Shown: positions 2,841 through 46,009 of the stretch, in pieces
Layout: each line of letters starts with the position of its first letter
Numbering within the stretch: the first letter of the stretch is position 1
Source of the DNA: a virus
Direction: 5' to 3' (one strand)
Length of the DNA: 58,738 nt
Virus record (IMG/VR): IMGVR_UViG_3300035698_006372
Span: 1-58,738 of that record
The notes under the pieces: model-generated
The model's input: only the letters and a program-made list of their open reading frames with translations
Told to the model about the DNA's origin: nothing
The model's database searches: none
Made by a program: the position numbers and the translations under genes

Positions 2841-4134
2841 GGGGACTGCGTCCTCGCTGGCATCGGGCGTCATAATCACTCCGGGGAGGGAGAAGTCCAT
2901 GCCCTTGGATGATGCCACAAAGGCCCGAGTGAGGAAAGAGGTCGTCAAGGGTATCGTCAACATCTCCCGCCACAAAGAGTTTTATGGCCACATTATCCAG
3001 CAGTTCGAAAAGGTCTTCGTGAATGCCGGTCACGAGGTCAATACGGCAGCCGTTGGCCGGTATCCGGGACTGCGGTTTATCAAGCTCTGGCTGAGCCTTC
3101 CATTCTTCCGTGGCATCCTTGAGGGTGCGGACATTAAGCAGTCCCGGACGTGGCTCAAGGGTGTTCTGGAGCATGAGATACTTCATATCGTGTTCGGACA
3201 TCTCTTTCTGAAGCTGGAGGATAATACTCGTGGCGGCGTGGCTACGGACTGTGTCATTAACTCGATTCTGAACCCGGAAGACAAGAAGGATGTCCTGCCG
3301 GGCAACTACGCTCATCCGGCACATTACGGCTTTCCGCTGGACAAGTCTGCGCTGTGGTACTATACCCATCTTCGCGAGAATGAGAAGTTCAAGAGGCAGT
3401 GCGCTTCCGGGGCTTTTGGAGTGGGAGGCATTCTGTCGCACATCATGCGGTCGCACGGGGCCTGGAAGGATGTCGAAGATGACCCGGTGACCAAGGAGTT
3501 CGCCAAGGACATTATTCGCAAGTCCCGTGACCTATGCAATAAGGACTATGGCAAGGTGCCCGGCAGGGTCATACAGCAGATTGAGGAGCTTCTGAAGCGC
3601 AAGAAGGCGATTGTTCCGTGGAACAAGGTGCTGAGGATGTTCGTAGCTTCCTGTGCTGAGTCCGTTTTGGACTACACCATTAAGCGTATCAGCAGGCGTT
3701 ATGGAACCCGGCCCGGCACCCGTAAGGGTGACGTGCTCAGAATAGCCGTAGCGATTGACACTTCGAGTTCCATTAATGATGAGCAGTTGAAGCTCTTCTG
3801 GAACGAAATCAGGTGGATTTGGAAGAACGGGGCTCAGGTGTGGGTTTACGAGTGTGACACACATCTATCTGCGAGGTCTCCCTTCCGCTTCAAGGGCCGT
3901 TGGGATGGCAAGGTGCATGGAAGGGGCGGTACGAGAATCGAGCCTCCTCTGGCGCATGCTGAGGGCAAATACGACGCTCTTATTTACTTCACTGACTTCT
4001 ATGCGCCGAAGGTGAGCCGGAAGTACCGGATTCCGACGCTATGGATACTCTTGACGGAGATGAGCAAGGACGAATACCCATACCCATGGGGCCGTCATAT
4101 CAAGATTGAGGACGGGAAGGCGTTGGTGGCATAA
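2815..4134 (+). CDS. VWA-like putative metallopeptidase (DUF2201-type, 439 aa)
   Basis: Two signatures are visible. Around residue 120, EHEILHIVFGH is an HExxH zinc site with a third His. Around residue 315, VAIDTSSSI is the DxSxS metal-binding motif of a von Willebrand A-like domain. This order matches the family of putative metallopeptidases with a C-terminal VWA-like domain, usually about 400 aa. In bacteria these are often paired with MoxR-type ATPases; none is visible in this window. Two starts are possible: 2815 (GGAGG upstream, overlapping the previous gene) and 2899 (GGGAGGGAG upstream). Confidence 0.75.
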   Translation: MAALSSPAKGTASSLASGVIITPGREKSMPLDDATKARVRKEVVKGIVNISRHKEFYGHIIQQFEKVFVNAGHEVNTAAVGRYPGLRFIKLWLSLPFFRGILEGADIKQSRTWLKGVLEHEILHIVFGHLFLKLEDNTRGGVATDCVINSILNPEDKKDVLPGNYAHPAHYGFPLDKSALWYYTHLRENEKFKRQCASGAFGVGGILSHIMRSHGAWKDVEDDPVTKEFAKDIIRKSRDLCNKDYGKVPGRVIQQIEELLKRKKAIVPWNKVLRMFVASCAESVLDYTIKRISRRYGTRPGTRKGDVLRIAVAIDTSSSINDEQLKLFWNEIRWIWKNGAQVWVYECDTHLSARSPFRFKGRWDGKVHGRGGTRIEPPLAHAEGKYDALIYFTDFYAPKVSRKYRIPTLWILLTEMSKDEYPYPWGRHIKIEDGKALVA

Positions 4135-41077: not shown

Positions 41078-44000
41078 ATGACAACATTACTGGACAAGAT
41101 ACGAGCGAAAAACCTTGCTGGGCAGGCTCCGGCTCCCATGGTGACAACCTCTCCCGGCAAGCCAGCCAAAAGCCTCAGAATGAGCGCTAGGGAGGCTCTC
41201 AAAGTCTTCGGACATGAAGCCTTCAGGGAAGGACAGGAGGAGGTCGTCAACGAGGTTGTGAGTGGCACAGGCGGCGTTCTGGCTATCTTCCCAACAGGTT
41301 ACGGGAAATGCTTGGGAGGCGATGTGGGCGTTTTGATGTATAGCGGAAGAACAAAGAACGTGAAGGACGTGCGGTCCGGCGATGAGTTGATGGGGCCAGA
41401 CAGTAGTCCAAGGCGGGTCGTCAGTATTACAAGCGGGCATGGAGACCTGTATGAGGTTGTCCCGAGAAAAGGTGACCCGTATGTGACGAATGGGGAGCAT
41501 CTTATTTCATTAAGGCGAACTGAGAAAGAATTGGCCGGGAAGCTGTCTACCGTGGCTGCGAAGGACTGGGAATCAAAGACCAATAATTTCAAACATGTGC
41601 ATAAGGGCTGGAGAACGGGGGTTGATTTTCCAGAATGCTATGTCAGTGAAATTGTTACACCCTATTTCTTGGGATTGTGGCTAGGGGACGGGTCGTCGGA
41701 CTTCCCTCACATTACGACCGCAGATGGGGAAATCAAGGATTTCGTCAGGAGCCATGCTGCGAAGTTGTGCTTAAAAGTGAGAACAAACTGGAAAAAGGGG
41801 AGTCTCGCAAACACATACTGCATAACGAGCGGGAGGAGCGGAGGGGGAGCGGGTCACCATCCAAATCAACTCCTACACGCGATGCGAGAAATGGGCGTCA
41901 TAAATGACAAACATATTCCCTATGAATATCTGGTCAATAGTCGGGAAAACAGGTTGGAGTTACTGGCTGGACTTATCGACAGCGACGGATGTCTGAATGG
42001 AGAATGTTGTTATGAATTGACATTTAAGATAGAGCGATTGGCTAAAGATGCCGTGTTTTTGGCACGGTCTTTGGGTCTGGCGGCATATTGTACCAAGTGC
42101 AGGAAGAAGTGCTTCAACAATGGCAAGACTGGCACATATTTCCGAATTGGTATAAGCGGGGATGTTGAAGAAATCCCCGTCTTGCTGAAAAGAAAAAGAG
42201 CGAAAAAGAGAATCGCAATTAAAAACCATATGAATGTGGGGATAACCGTTAAGCCGTATGGAAAGGGCAATTACTACGGCTTCATGCTTGACGGCGACCA
42301 TCTGTTTCTTCTGGATGATTTTACCGTAACCCATAACTCCTTAGTTTACCAGCTTCCCTCGCTCATGTCGAACAATCTGACCGTGGTCGTATCCCCACTC
42401 ATCGCCCTAATGAAAGACCAAGTGGACAAACTCCAGAGTCTTGGGGTCAACGCCATTCTTATCAACTCGACTCTTTCCGAAATGGAGACCAGAATTGCGC
42501 TCGCGGAAGTGTCGAGTGGCGGCATCACGGCTCTGTACGTGGCTCCCGAGAGGTTTCGTAACAAGCAGTTCATCGGGGCCATCAGTAATATGGACATCGA
42601 CATTCTTGCCATTGACGAGGCCCATTGTTTCATTGGGGATACGATGGTTTTGACGCCTTACGGTGAGCGACGAATTGACTCTCTCCGGGTGGGGGACGAA
42701 GTCATTTCAGGTCAAGATGTAGAGCCTGTTGTCCGCAAGGTGTCGCGACTGTTCCTTCATCGTGGTCTGGACGTGTGGAAGATTAGTATCAACGGGCGAG
42801 ACATTTATTGCGATGGTGGTCAGCAGTTTTTCGTAAAAAGCATTGGCTTCGTTCGTGTGGACAATATACGATGTGGGCATGAAATCATTATCGAAGAGTC
42901 AGACGGTGGTGTGCGAAGTTTGCGGGACTGTCCGGGAGATGCGACTCAGGAAAGGTCGTCCGCCGAGCAAGTATTGTTCTCGGGGATGCCAGAGGAAGGG
43001 GTCGGGGAAGACCAGAAGTGTTCCGACGGTGGGGAAGACATGTCCGTCGTGCGGGGAGACATTTCAGACCAAGCCGGGATACAGGACTCGGCACTGTTCG
43101 ACTCTGTGTGGCCAGCGTTCGGAAGCGAAGAAGCTGGAGGCATCGGAGAGGATGACTCGGGACAACCCAATGAAGAGGGAAGAAGTCAGAAAGGCCGTTG
43201 GGGATATTTTGGCTGGGAAGGACAAGTTCAAGACGAACCGGGGCGGAAACGGTCGAGGCTCAACGAGGCCGGAGAAGTCACTGGCGGTTGCGGGGAGATT
43301 CTCGCTGAACCACATTGTAAGGACAGGACATTGCCGGGATGGGAGTGGTTATCCAACACATTACAAACTGGACTTGTCGTGGCCATCTCTGAAGGTGGCA
43401 GTGGAAGTGGACGGCCCGTCGCACAAGGCGTTGAAGATACAAGACGCAGACCAGCGGAAGGAGTTGTTTTTAAGGTCGCTCGGGTGGAAGGTGTTTCGCG
43501 TGTCGAACGAGGAAGCACTCTTACAACCGGGGAATGCCTTGGGAAGAATCCGGTTGGGGTGCGGCTTTACGACATCGAAGTTGAAGGAAGTCATAACTTC
43601 TTTGCAAATGGCTCCTTAGCTCACAACTGTATCAGCCGATGGGGACATGACTTCCGTCCAGCTTATTCCGACCTTGGTGGGGCTGCCGAAATGCTCAACC
43701 CGAGGATGGTTGTCGCCTTGACGGCTACGGCTACAACGAAGGTGCAAGACGATATCTGTCATGTGCTGGGAATGCCCAATGCCAAGAGGTTCGTGAGAAG
43801 CGTCTACCGGAGCAATCTTCAACTCGCCGTGGTGCATCAGTCCGGGTATGGCCGGATGCAGTGCATCACCGAAGTGGCGAAGGACTTCATAGGCGAGGGG
43901 AACAATACCGGAATTATCTATTCCACGACACGGAAAGAAGCAGAGGAAATCTGCGCATATCTACGGGAAAGGAATGTCCCGGCCATGTTCTATCATGCCG

Positions 44001-46009
44001 GACTGAAGCCCGCTATCCGTGAGAAAGTTCAGAACGAGTGGTCTCAGAATGGTGGTGTCATCGTGGCGACCTGTGCTTTCGGCATGGGTATTGACAAGCC
44101 CGATGTCCGGTTCGTCATCCACTCGGGGCTTTCCCCGAGCATTGAGGACTGGTATCAGGCGTGTGTCTATCCAGATTCGATGATATTAACGCCAGAAGGG
44201 GAGATGGAGGCATCTGATATCTCCGAGGGGGATATTGTAGCAACCATTGGGGAAGATGGTGATATATCTTCAAACAGGGTCGTTAAGAAAATTCTAGGAC
44301 ATTCTAGCGAGTGGGTCAGAATCAGGACAAAATACGGTTCTGAAATACTGGTGACTCCGAATCATCCTGTGTATTTGCGAATGGACAAGCGGTACGAAAG
44401 AGCGGATAAGTGCAAAACTGGAGATGGAATACTCAATGCCGAACACTCAAGGGAATATTCTCCAAAGGATTACAATTTTCTCGATTTCGTGAATACCGAC
44501 TTGACCTATGTTATGGTGTCACCATCTGTTTTAGACAAGGTGCGGAGTGCTCTTTCTCCTGTTGAAATGCAGAGAATATTCCAACTAAATCGTCCGCATG
44601 ATTATTCTGCATACGGGAAAGGGAAGAGGGCTCGGCTATCATGCTGGGCTGATGCGTGTAGAAAAGCAGGGGTAGAGACAGAAGAGCTATATAAGAATGT
44701 CTCAAAAATAGGCACGAGGAGCGGCACCTCTCTTGCTCGGCCTTGTTCTATGGATGGAGATTTTGGATGGCTATTGGGGATACTTGTGACAGATGGGCAC
44801 ATAAAACAAGTCAAGTCCAAGAGAATGGGAGACACCAGAAGAATTACGTTTGGTAATACTGATTCTAAAATCTTGTTAAAATTTGAGAGAATTGTTGGCT
44901 CATACGGACTTAATTGCAGCAAATACAAAAGAAAAGAGAGACAAGGAGAAAAAGAGTTTTGGGAGCTTTCCGTGTCCTCTCAACCATTGGTTGATGTTCT
45001 CGTCGCATTCGGAATGAAGGTGGGTGCAAAGTCGTACAATGTTTTATGTGATGACAAGATTAAATCTGCACCCCTTGGTTTTATCGGGGGATTCCTCGCG
45101 GGTTGTTTTGACGGAGACGGCAATTACTCAAAGCAAAATAATTCTTTCAGAATACATTCGGCATCTTGGGCGATGGTATCCTCGATGGTTGGTATTCTTC
45201 GCATGCACGGAATAAGAATGAAAATTCACACCGAGACATATCGTGGACCCGATAAGTTTGGTGCGAAGTCCCCATTCGGCTACTGTGGGGCGATATCTGG
45301 TGCCGGGAGCATTTCAGAGTTCTTGGCTCTTACTTCTGATTATAGCGTAAAGGAACAATCCTGTGATATTGAGAGCATTCGATGTCGAAGGAAAAGGAAA
45401 CCGTGCGAAGAAGATGCCATAATAGAGATTGAATCTGTCAGCATGAGTTCTCCTACGGTCAATTTTGCAGTAGAGTCCGACAATAATTATTTTGTGGATG
45501 GCGTTTTAACTCATAATTGTGGACGGGCCGGGCGTGACGGCAAGGAATCTCTTTGTCTGACCGTCTGCGACTTCAAAGACGATTATCGGACTCAGATGTT
45601 CCTGATTGACATGACGAACCCGACCGGGGCCGATGTGAAAAGGTTCTGGGCATGGCTCCAACTTGTAGCGTCGAAACAGATGGCTCCCGGAGAGAAGACG
45701 ACCGAAGTTAAGATGACTCAGAAAGTCATGAAAGAGGAGTCCGGGTGTCTCAACGTCGGCGCGTGTATCTCAGTTCTAAAGAAGAGCGGACTCGTTGAGA
45801 CGCTCGGCAGGGGCCGGTACAAGGTCAATCTGAAGGACGTGGTCATCGAAACTGATGTGCTCACGGCTGCGAGAAACGATAAGGTTGCGAAGCTCAATCA
45901 GGTCTGTGACTTCTATCGGATGTCCGGGTGCCGCTTCAAGTTCGTCTGTGACTATTTCGGGGATATGTCCTTTCCGGGTAGCTGTGGGAATTGTGACAAC
46001 TGTACGTAA
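41078..46009 (+). CDS. recQ: RecQ-type DNA helicase with three inteins (1643 aa precursor)
   Basis: The extein of about 514 residues carries RecQ superfamily 2 helicase motifs: FREGQEEVVNEVV, Walker A PTGYGK|SLVYQLP, VVVSPLIALMKDQV, ALYVAPERFR, Walker B IDEAH|CISRWGHDFRP, LTATAT, GIIYSTTRKEAEEICAYL, and motif VI HSGLSPSIEDWYQA|CGRAGRDG, plus a zinc-binding/winged-helix C-terminus (CNVGAC-like, ending CGNCDNCT). Bars mark intein positions. Each intein interrupts a catalytic motif, so the helicase is inactive until all three splice. The gene starts almost directly at its TATAAT promoter. Confidence 0.88.
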   Translation: MTTLLDKIRAKNLAGQAPAPMVTTSPGKPAKSLRMSAREALKVFGHEAFREGQEEVVNEVVSGTGGVLAIFPTGYGKCLGGDVGVLMYSGRTKNVKDVRSGDELMGPDSSPRRVVSITSGHGDLYEVVPRKGDPYVTNGEHLISLRRTEKELAGKLSTVAAKDWESKTNNFKHVHKGWRTGVDFPECYVSEIVTPYFLGLWLGDGSSDFPHITTADGEIKDFVRSHAAKLCLKVRTNWKKGSLANTYCITSGRSGGGAGHHPNQLLHAMREMGVINDKHIPYEYLVNSRENRLELLAGLIDSDGCLNGECCYELTFKIERLAKDAVFLARSLGLAAYCTKCRKKCFNNGKTGTYFRIGISGDVEEIPVLLKRKRAKKRIAIKNHMNVGITVKPYGKGNYYGFMLDGDHLFLLDDFTVTHNSLVYQLPSLMSNNLTVVVSPLIALMKDQVDKLQSLGVNAILINSTLSEMETRIALAEVSSGGITALYVAPERFRNKQFIGAISNMDIDILAIDEAHCFIGDTMVLTPYGERRIDSLRVGDEVISGQDVEPVVRKVSRLFLHRGLDVWKISINGRDIYCDGGQQFFVKSIGFVRVDNIRCGHEIIIEESDGGVRSLRDCPGDATQERSSAEQVLFSGMPEEGVGEDQKCSDGGEDMSVVRGDISDQAGIQDSALFDSVWPAFGSEEAGGIGEDDSGQPNEEGRSQKGRWGYFGWEGQVQDEPGRKRSRLNEAGEVTGGCGEILAEPHCKDRTLPGWEWLSNTLQTGLVVAISEGGSGSGRPVAQGVEDTRRRPAEGVVFKVARVEGVSRVERGSTLTTGECLGKNPVGVRLYDIEVEGSHNFFANGSLAHNCISRWGHDFRPAYSDLGGAAEMLNPRMVVALTATATTKVQDDICHVLGMPNAKRFVRSVYRSNLQLAVVHQSGYGRMQCITEVAKDFIGEGNNTGIIYSTTRKEAEEICAYLRERNVPAMFYHAGLKPAIREKVQNEWSQNGGVIVATCAFGMGIDKPDVRFVIHSGLSPSIEDWYQACVYPDSMILTPEGEMEASDISEGDIVATIGEDGDISSNRVVKKILGHSSEWVRIRTKYGSEILVTPNHPVYLRMDKRYERADKCKTGDGILNAEHSREYSPKDYNFLDFVNTDLTYVMVSPSVLDKVRSALSPVEMQRIFQLNRPHDYSAYGKGKRARLSCWADACRKAGVETEELYKNVSKIGTRSGTSLARPCSMDGDFGWLLGILVTDGHIKQVKSKRMGDTRRITFGNTDSKILLKFERIVGSYGLNCSKYKRKERQGEKEFWELSVSSQPLVDVLVAFGMKVGAKSYNVLCDDKIKSAPLGFIGGFLAGCFDGDGNYSKQNNSFRIHSASWAMVSSMVGILRMHGIRMKIHTETYRGPDKFGAKSPFGYCGAISGAGSISEFLALTSDYSVKEQSCDIESIRCRRKRKPCEEDAIIEIESVSMSSPTVNFAVESDNNYFVDGVLTHNCGRAGRDGKESLCLTVCDFKDDYRTQMFLIDMTNPTGADVKRFWAWLQLVASKQMAPGEKTTEVKMTQKVMKEESGCLNVGACISVLKKSGLVETLGRGRYKVNLKDVVIETDVLTAARNDKVAKLNQVCDFYRMSGCRFKFVCDYFGDMSFPGSCGNCDNCT
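41309..42337 (+). other. RecQ intein 1 in the P-loop (343 aa, LAGLIDADG)
   Basis: Begins CLGGDVGVLMYSGRTKNVKD and ends LLDDFTVTHN before Ser of SLVYQLP, the Walker A serine. Endonuclease motifs are FLGLWLGDG and LLAGLIDSDG. Insertion between GK and S is a common intein site because the codons are so conserved. Confidence 0.9.
42626..43627 (+). other. RecQ intein 2 in the DEAH box, with overprinted endonuclease (334 aa)
   Basis: N-terminal splicing block CFIGDTMVLTPYGERRID and VGDEVIS; C-terminal block VRLYDIEVEGSHNFFANGSL then AHN before Cys of CISRWG. The ~230 residues between have no LAGLIDADG or HNH motif and a strange Gly/Glu/Arg/Ser composition, because the same DNA encodes a real endonuclease in the +1 frame (42879-43619). 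The intein frame stays open throughout. Confidence 0.85.
42879..43619 (+). CDS. Vsr-like homing endonuclease encoded out of frame inside RecQ intein 2 (246 aa)
   Basis: In the +1 frame relative to the helicase, an ATG opens a 246-residue protein with two zinc ribbons (C12-C15-C33-C37 and C55-C58-C73-C77), a NUMOD3-type motif (RMTRDNPMKREEVRKAVG, about 91-108), and a C-terminal PD-(D/E)xK/Vsr-like nuclease (HYKLDLSWPSLKVAVEVDGP then RKELFLRSLGWKVFRVSNEE). Its stop lies nine bases before the intein ends. All expected domains of a mobile endonuclease are intact. Free-standing Vsr-like endonucleases are known inside split inteins; here the host intein is not split but overprinted. Confidence 0.85.
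   Translation: MKSLSKSQTVVCEVCGTVREMRLRKGRPPSKYCSRGCQRKGSGKTRSVPTVGKTCPSCGETFQTKPGYRTRHCSTLCGQRSEAKKLEASERMTRDNPMKREEVRKAVGDILAGKDKFKTNRGGNGRGSTRPEKSLAVAGRFSLNHIVRTGHCRDGSGYPTHYKLDLSWPSLKVAVEVDGPSHKALKIQDADQRKELFLRSLGWKVFRVSNEEALLQPGNALGRIRLGCGFTTSKLKEVITSLQMAP
44162..45517 (+). other. RecQ intein 3 in helicase motif VI (452 aa, LAGLIDADG)
   Basis: Begins CVYPDSMILTPEGEMEASDI and ends NYFVDGVLTHN before Cys of CGRAGRDG, the arginine-finger motif. Endonuclease motifs are LLGILVTDG and FLAGCFDGDG. The intein DNA is A/T-rich relative to the extein. Confidence 0.9.

Follow-up and report, generated by a model that had tools for sequence, protein, structure and literature searches.

The window analysed here is a 58,738-nucleotide stretch of viral DNA (IMG/VR record IMGVR_UViG_3300035698_006372, positions 1 to 58,738). 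Its recQ gene carries three inteins, and the second of these, together with a nuclease gene read one base out of register from the same DNA, is the subject of this work (Table 1). Because the frame of intein 2 is unbroken, the window copy has no separate intein-N and intein-C genes, and the terminal and flanking splicing residues are present in the host frame: C1 is encoded by TGT at 42626-42628, the terminal His-Asn ends in AAC at 43625-43627, and the +1 Cys follows at 43628. A first-pass annotation, made from the letters of the window alone, had described a continuous intein with both splicing ends, and that description holds. The 246-residue +1 protein that it had drawn inside the intein is likewise open from its ATG to its TAG, and its estimate of about 740 dual-coding base pairs agrees with the 741 counted. 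The nuclease stop and the intein end are separated by 8 bases, not the nine first given, and the C-terminal splicing block of the intein does share bases with the nuclease C-terminus, as had been proposed.

Table 1. Features of the recQ locus, in positions of the window.
Feature	Position	Strand	Remarks
recQ open reading frame (ORF), host gene of the element	41078..46009	+	One 1643-residue ORF; RecQ family and intein matches
RecQ intein 2, 334 residues	42626..43627	+	Inserted at IDEAH^CISRWG (^, insertion point), motif II (Walker B); intein_Cterm and Intein_splicing matches
Hint N-terminal half, intein residues 1-94	42626..42907	+	Predicted local distance difference test score (pLDDT) mostly >90; Hint fold
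Intein-frame linker, residues 95-275, predicted disordered	42908..43450	+	pLDDT <50 nearly throughout; the DNA also codes for most of the nuclease
Hint C-terminal half, residues 276-334	43451..43627	+	pLDDT mostly high; overlaps the nuclease C-terminus to 43619
Overprinted nuclease gene, 246 residues	42879..43619	+	+1 relative to the intein; ATG at 42879, TAG at 43617-43619; DUF559 match
Two zinc-ribbon-like CxxC...C sets, putative DNA-binding part	42912..43109	+	Conserved cysteines; weak zinc-finger profile matches
Nuclease catalytic domain, GGNG motif to DUF559 end	43245..43556	+	Invariant columns; Foldseek matches 3r3p and 3hrl

Family searches run separately on the two translations, a check suggested by the first-pass annotation, found an intein in one frame and a nuclease in the other. 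The intein frame matches TIGR01443 (intein_Cterm) at 3e-6, above its cut-off, and PF14890 at 3.3e-6, below its curated cut-off, while the +1 frame matches PF04480 (DUF559) at 8.7e-9, above its cut-off. Five residues of the nuclease catalytic domain are conserved (D165, E176, D178, H182 and D191), and D165, D178, H182 and D191 are invariant. The two zinc ribbons noted earlier are represented by two CxxC...C(x2-3)C sets whose cysteines are conserved across the family, those of the second set at 90% or more, although the accompanying zf-FCS/L24e-type profile matches are weak. A NUMOD3 motif, also listed at first, has no Pfam match in the window nuclease or in 60 aligned relatives.

The nuclease model, built from 60 aligned sequences, has a mean pLDDT of 88.5, and its best Foldseek match in the PDB is the catalytic domain of I-Bth0305I (3r3p; probability 1.00, E 1.3e-3), followed by the DUF559-like protein 3hrl. 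A profile search agrees, with 3hrl at 1.9e-12 and a weak match to 3r3p at 0.003. The nuclease fold expected from the original label "Vsr-like" is present. DUF559-like is the better name for the protein, whose structure resembles that of the EDxHD enzyme I-Bth0305I. The AlphaFold2 model of the intein frame places the two Hint halves at residues 1-94 and 276-334, and the Foldseek matches of this model are inteins and related Hint domains. Read as intein, the dual-coding middle is thus a predicted disordered linker and, read in +1, a predicted enzyme. When the window nuclease was recoded by phage codon usage, the intein frame contained a mean of 15.5 stops and was stop-free in 0 of 20,000 recodings, which confirmed that the overlap is real and not due to chance.

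The same arrangement was found in many other phages. A protein search of named phages returned 42 records, including Vibrio phage CP-T1, many phages of Vibrio lentus and Corynebacterium phage phi673, and in the phage regions that were inspected a single gene annotated as a helicase or hypothetical protein always contains the nuclease match, shifted by one base from its frame. None of the inspected public records annotates a separate nuclease, including L001 (JQ177061 gp10), L006 (MG324353 gp43) and the set L002-L007. With IMG/VR and bacterial genome contigs added, 191 loci with a related nuclease were collected; most are metagenomic, and they were gathered by similarity to overprinted queries and do not amount to a census of the split or free forms. 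In 169 of the 191 the host frame stays open over the whole nuclease core, with the nuclease in the +1 frame in every one, and a nuclease in the +2 frame was seen in none of the 191. Dereplication at <90% identity left 118 overprinted loci, and with so many distinct loci sharing it the arrangement is a stable form, one of the possibilities that had been raised. The nuclease is conserved across related loci, which excludes a +1 protein lacking conservation, an outcome named in advance as fatal to the claim. The intein C block is present in the host frame in 118 of 118 loci and the N block in 116 of 118, the stored contig starting inside the element in the remaining two. Insertion sites are nearly all DE^C, DE^S or DEAH^C, corresponding to the Walker B motif of helicases, clamp loaders and other ATPases; among 111 C-terminal exteins (the classes overlap), 71 match Helicase_C, 26 DNA polymerase III delta-prime type clamp loaders, 14 SNF2 and 2 terminase. 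The distance from the nuclease stop to the intein end takes only a few values (8, 11, 20, 23, 44, 50 and 65 bases), which suggests that nuclease stop codons are embedded in conserved intein motifs.

The genetic code offers a simple reason why +1 is the permitted register. Each intein codon in this register is made up of the third base of a nuclease codon and the first two bases of the next, so that an intein-frame stop arises only where the third base of a nuclease codon is T and the next codon opens with AA, AG or GA. Codons of the form NNT and NNC are always synonymous, and the nuclease can therefore avoid such stops with its protein unchanged. In the +2 register some stops are unavoidable, for example where the codon after Met begins with A. 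Among the 118 overprinted loci, which were classed as such by the absence of stops, T is used at 0 of 8,180 stop-creating positions, where 2,161 would be expected; elsewhere T makes up 25.2% of third bases. The classes lie far apart, with 0 against at least 9 stops, the exceptions being one locus with exactly one stop (L159) and three distant DUF559 hits. Avoidance is absent from split and free relatives, in which T stands at 235 of 790 such positions (29.7%, against 30.7% elsewhere).

Constraint on the two frames was compared by codon position between the window and a related locus, L009, a comparison close to one that the first-pass annotation had advised. In the middle of the overlap, change at the first, second and third nuclease codon positions is 0.165, 0.148 and 0.341; this mainly third-position change is as expected if it is mainly the nuclease that is constrained there. 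The 40 codons at the end of the overlap, which also encode the Hint C half, have values of 0, 0.10 and 0.05, and identity in the intein frame is 0.95 there, up from 0.585 in the middle. Change is thus suppressed in both frames where the nuclease overlaps the Hint C half. The same pair of loci bears on mobility. Their RecQ exteins are 49-51% identical, with third-position change of 0.62-0.65, while the non-overlapping N part of the intein is 74% identical, with third-position change of 0.36. Since the inteins are far more alike than the exteins around them, the comparison points to lateral movement, implying that intein and nuclease moved more recently than their host genes diverged. An IMG/VR search for relatives of the window RecQ C-extein found none. 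An exact empty site, QDE^CHHV, is present in the uninterrupted helicase of Vibrio phage 234P10, whose DNA is 88% identical to that of the intein-bearing Vibrio phage 1.195.O.

We interpret the locus as a mobile element that encodes two proteins in one DNA, a Hint intein and an internally started +1 nuclease that spreads it, and we give this reading a probability of roughly 0.87. Reading straight through recQ would produce a precursor with a Hint intein whose two halves fold and are connected by a long disordered linker, and this intein would be expected to splice out and leave RecQ intact. Ribosomes would also start inside the intein, one base off, and release a free zinc-ribbon/DUF559 nuclease, whose predicted cleavage sites are the Walker B codons of alleles lacking the intein; repair of the break would then copy the whole unit into these alleles. 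The overlap would persist because in the +1 register replacing a stop-creating T by C never alters the nuclease protein. Should avoidance lapse, stops would accumulate in the linker and leave a split intein around a nuclease gene, as has apparently happened in one nested clade.

Some observations weigh against this reading, and they are given here with the alternatives on which they bear. The candidate first Glu of the EDxHD motif is present in the window nuclease and is replaced by Gln in many relatives. In block B, a Thr-x-x-His is usual in inteins, though not universal, and the window and L009 inteins have Asp and Gln in these positions. This segment (window 42800-42830) reads CDGGQQFF in both, and L120 has its His replaced too. 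The missing Thr and His weaken the claim of splicing for the window copy only: 122 of 125 relatives retain the block B His, C1 is found in all 125, and the terminal His-Asn is conserved. Splicing of the window copy is therefore among the least certain in the family, and the chemistry of the window, L009 and L120 copies may be unusual, with the remaining intein under constraint. The loss of these residues could also mean that the intein frame is a mere open passenger and that the window insert no longer splices, RecQ being inactive or working despite a retained insert, as has been suggested for the ShiLan insertion discussed below. We consider this unlikely. None of C1, the terminal His-Asn and the +1 Cys is lost, both Hint halves have high-confidence models, and the intein N half shows a purifying pattern between the window and L009, with change of 0.19, 0.11 and 0.36 by codon position. 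The insert moreover lies in ATPase motif II, where its retention should abolish activity, and the general retention of the block B His argues against a passenger at the level of the family.

The relation between the overprinted and split forms was examined in the seven distinct loci that have separate intein-N and intein-C ORFs with a nuclease between them (L050, L067, L068, L076, L105, L106 and L109). In these the nuclease overlaps the open frame of each intein half by roughly 105-140 bases, and the frame relation of halves and nuclease is exactly that of the overprinted form in all seven. They form one clade with a support of 100, inside a strongly supported clade whose other members are overprinted (53) or free (2). 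Judging from this nesting and the identity of frames, the overprinted form is the likely source of the split clade, in agreement with the earlier suggestion that overprinting could be a step between contiguous and split inteins. The opposite direction, in which the split form is ancestral and the nuclease gene between the halves later lost its intein-frame stops and so fused them, would agree with the reported existence of split inteins with Vsr-like nuclease genes between their halves, and with the root placed on the split stem one change explains either direction. The rooting itself is imperfect: the distant DUF559 proteins used to root the nuclease tree have long branches, and the intein tree is not rootable, having few columns and outgroups that stand apart from one another on long branches. 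The split clade nevertheless stays nested among overprinted loci when the nuclease tree is rooted in this way, and clearing about 25 intein-frame stops per locus in one step would be harder than gaining them, which makes a split ancestor quite improbable. Two further loci are relevant to the conversion of one form to the other. In a different overprinted clade, a clamp-loader gene (L159) has a single TAG at 3755-3757 in an otherwise overprinted intein frame, which may mark an incipient split or a dying copy, or may be a sequence error. At a split-intein locus (L111:2793-2957), the nuclease ORF is broken by frame changes, a pattern as expected for an endonuclease decaying between intact intein halves. 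Free-standing relatives of the nuclease also lie directly upstream of helicase genes (L082:4150-5200 and L073:4979-5663), and the L082 helicase has a disturbed frame at motif II (DE...HH), as though an imprecise excision had occurred.

The start of the nuclease was assessed in 116 loci. A strong Shine-Dalgarno sequence precedes a nuclease-frame ATG near the start in 59 of them, while in the same regions the counts are 9 for ATGs of the intein frame and 1 for those of the third frame, and in 80 of the 116 an upstream stop in the nuclease frame lies no more than 5 codons from the profile start. In the window, ATG 42879 is the likeliest candidate for the start codon, and its Shine-Dalgarno match is weak. 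This weak match, together with a relative frame that is always +1, is what might be seen if the nuclease arose through programmed +1 frameshifting during translation of the intein, which would join it to the Hint N half in one fusion protein. That route appears highly improbable, as the upstream stops leave almost no space for a shift site and the split loci carry the same nuclease as a separate gene; the ribosome-binding sites and upstream stops favour internal initiation over frameshifting. A sequencing or assembly frameshift that merged two frames or split one gene, which the metagenomic origin of the window and most of its relatives might have suggested, is refuted by complete isolate phage genomes from several laboratories that have the same arrangement, with both frames open across the whole overlap and 118 diverged loci in agreement, more than 100 independent sequences in all.

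The family was compared with known associations of inteins and nucleases. In 2009 Dassa and colleagues reportedly described, in Nucleic Acids Research (NAR), fractured genes in which split inteins have a Vsr-like endonuclease gene between their halves. The tie between a Vsr-like nuclease and a phage intein is shared, and the split loci here have exactly that layout, but most members have a continuous intein on which the whole nuclease is overprinted. Canonical inteins, in which a LAGLIDADG or HNH endonuclease is in frame (recQ inteins 1 and 3 are examples), similarly have Hint halves around a homing endonuclease coding region and occupy conserved ATPase motifs; in these the endonuclease is part of the intein protein, whereas in the present element another frame encodes it as a protein of its own and the linker is predicted to be disordered. 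I-Bth0305I (3r3p), which is from a group I intron, and 3hrl resemble the nuclease in the fold of the catalytic domain and in several acidic and His positions, and differ in carrier element, in DNA-binding parts and in the leading Glu, which is often Gln here. A standard review has endonucleases either translated free-standing from introns or fused to inteins (PMC3943268). The closest published case is that of the ShiLan domain and the Pacc40 insertion, out-of-frame HNH endonucleases in phage methylases (Arsenault, Gosselin, Gogarten 2025, PMC11855218). As here, the host frame runs open through the ShiLan insert, and a zinc-finger nuclease thought to drive homing is encoded in another frame, but that nuclease is of the HNH type and in the third frame, and the authors could not identify an intein or intron and thought the insert to be retained (PMC11855218). 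ShiLan is not an intein, and the window element, with a DUF559-like nuclease always in +1 and an insert with intein motifs, falls outside the ShiLan-type definition. Searches of an open-access library turned up no description of a continuous intein with a fully overprinted nuclease, though a preprint on non-canonical inteins of actinobacteriophages may contain part of it (Gosselin and colleagues 2025, bioRxiv 10.1101/2025.01.02.630785).

Taken over the family, the element probably represents a third, widespread intein architecture, in which a continuous Hint intein at Walker B sites of P-loop ATPases is overprinted in +1 by a free nuclease gene, is held open by the avoidance of T-ending nuclease codons at stop-creating positions, and is an evolutionary source of naturally split inteins by way of linker stops. 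Such an architecture bears on two open questions, the origin of split inteins and the way in which an endonuclease joins an intein. Continuous overprinted inteins, a single-stop form, fully split inteins with their frames unchanged, a split intein with a decaying nuclease, and free nucleases beside helicases are all found in one family, so that the path between them can be tested directly. The family is also a large, replicated natural case of overprinting, with more than 100 diverged loci and 0 stops where about 2,160 would be expected, and it offers new intein and nuclease scaffolds. Current annotations hide these nucleases inside "helicase" genes, as in gp10 of CP-T1 and gp43 of phi673.

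The two other recQ inteins of the window lie on the + strand at 41309-42337 and 44162-45517 and contain in-frame LAGLIDADG-type endonuclease regions. Both are absent from the L009 recQ. The first interrupts Walker A (GK^S) and the second sits immediately ahead of CGRAGRDG (motif VI); all three inteins of the gene thus occupy ATPase motifs.
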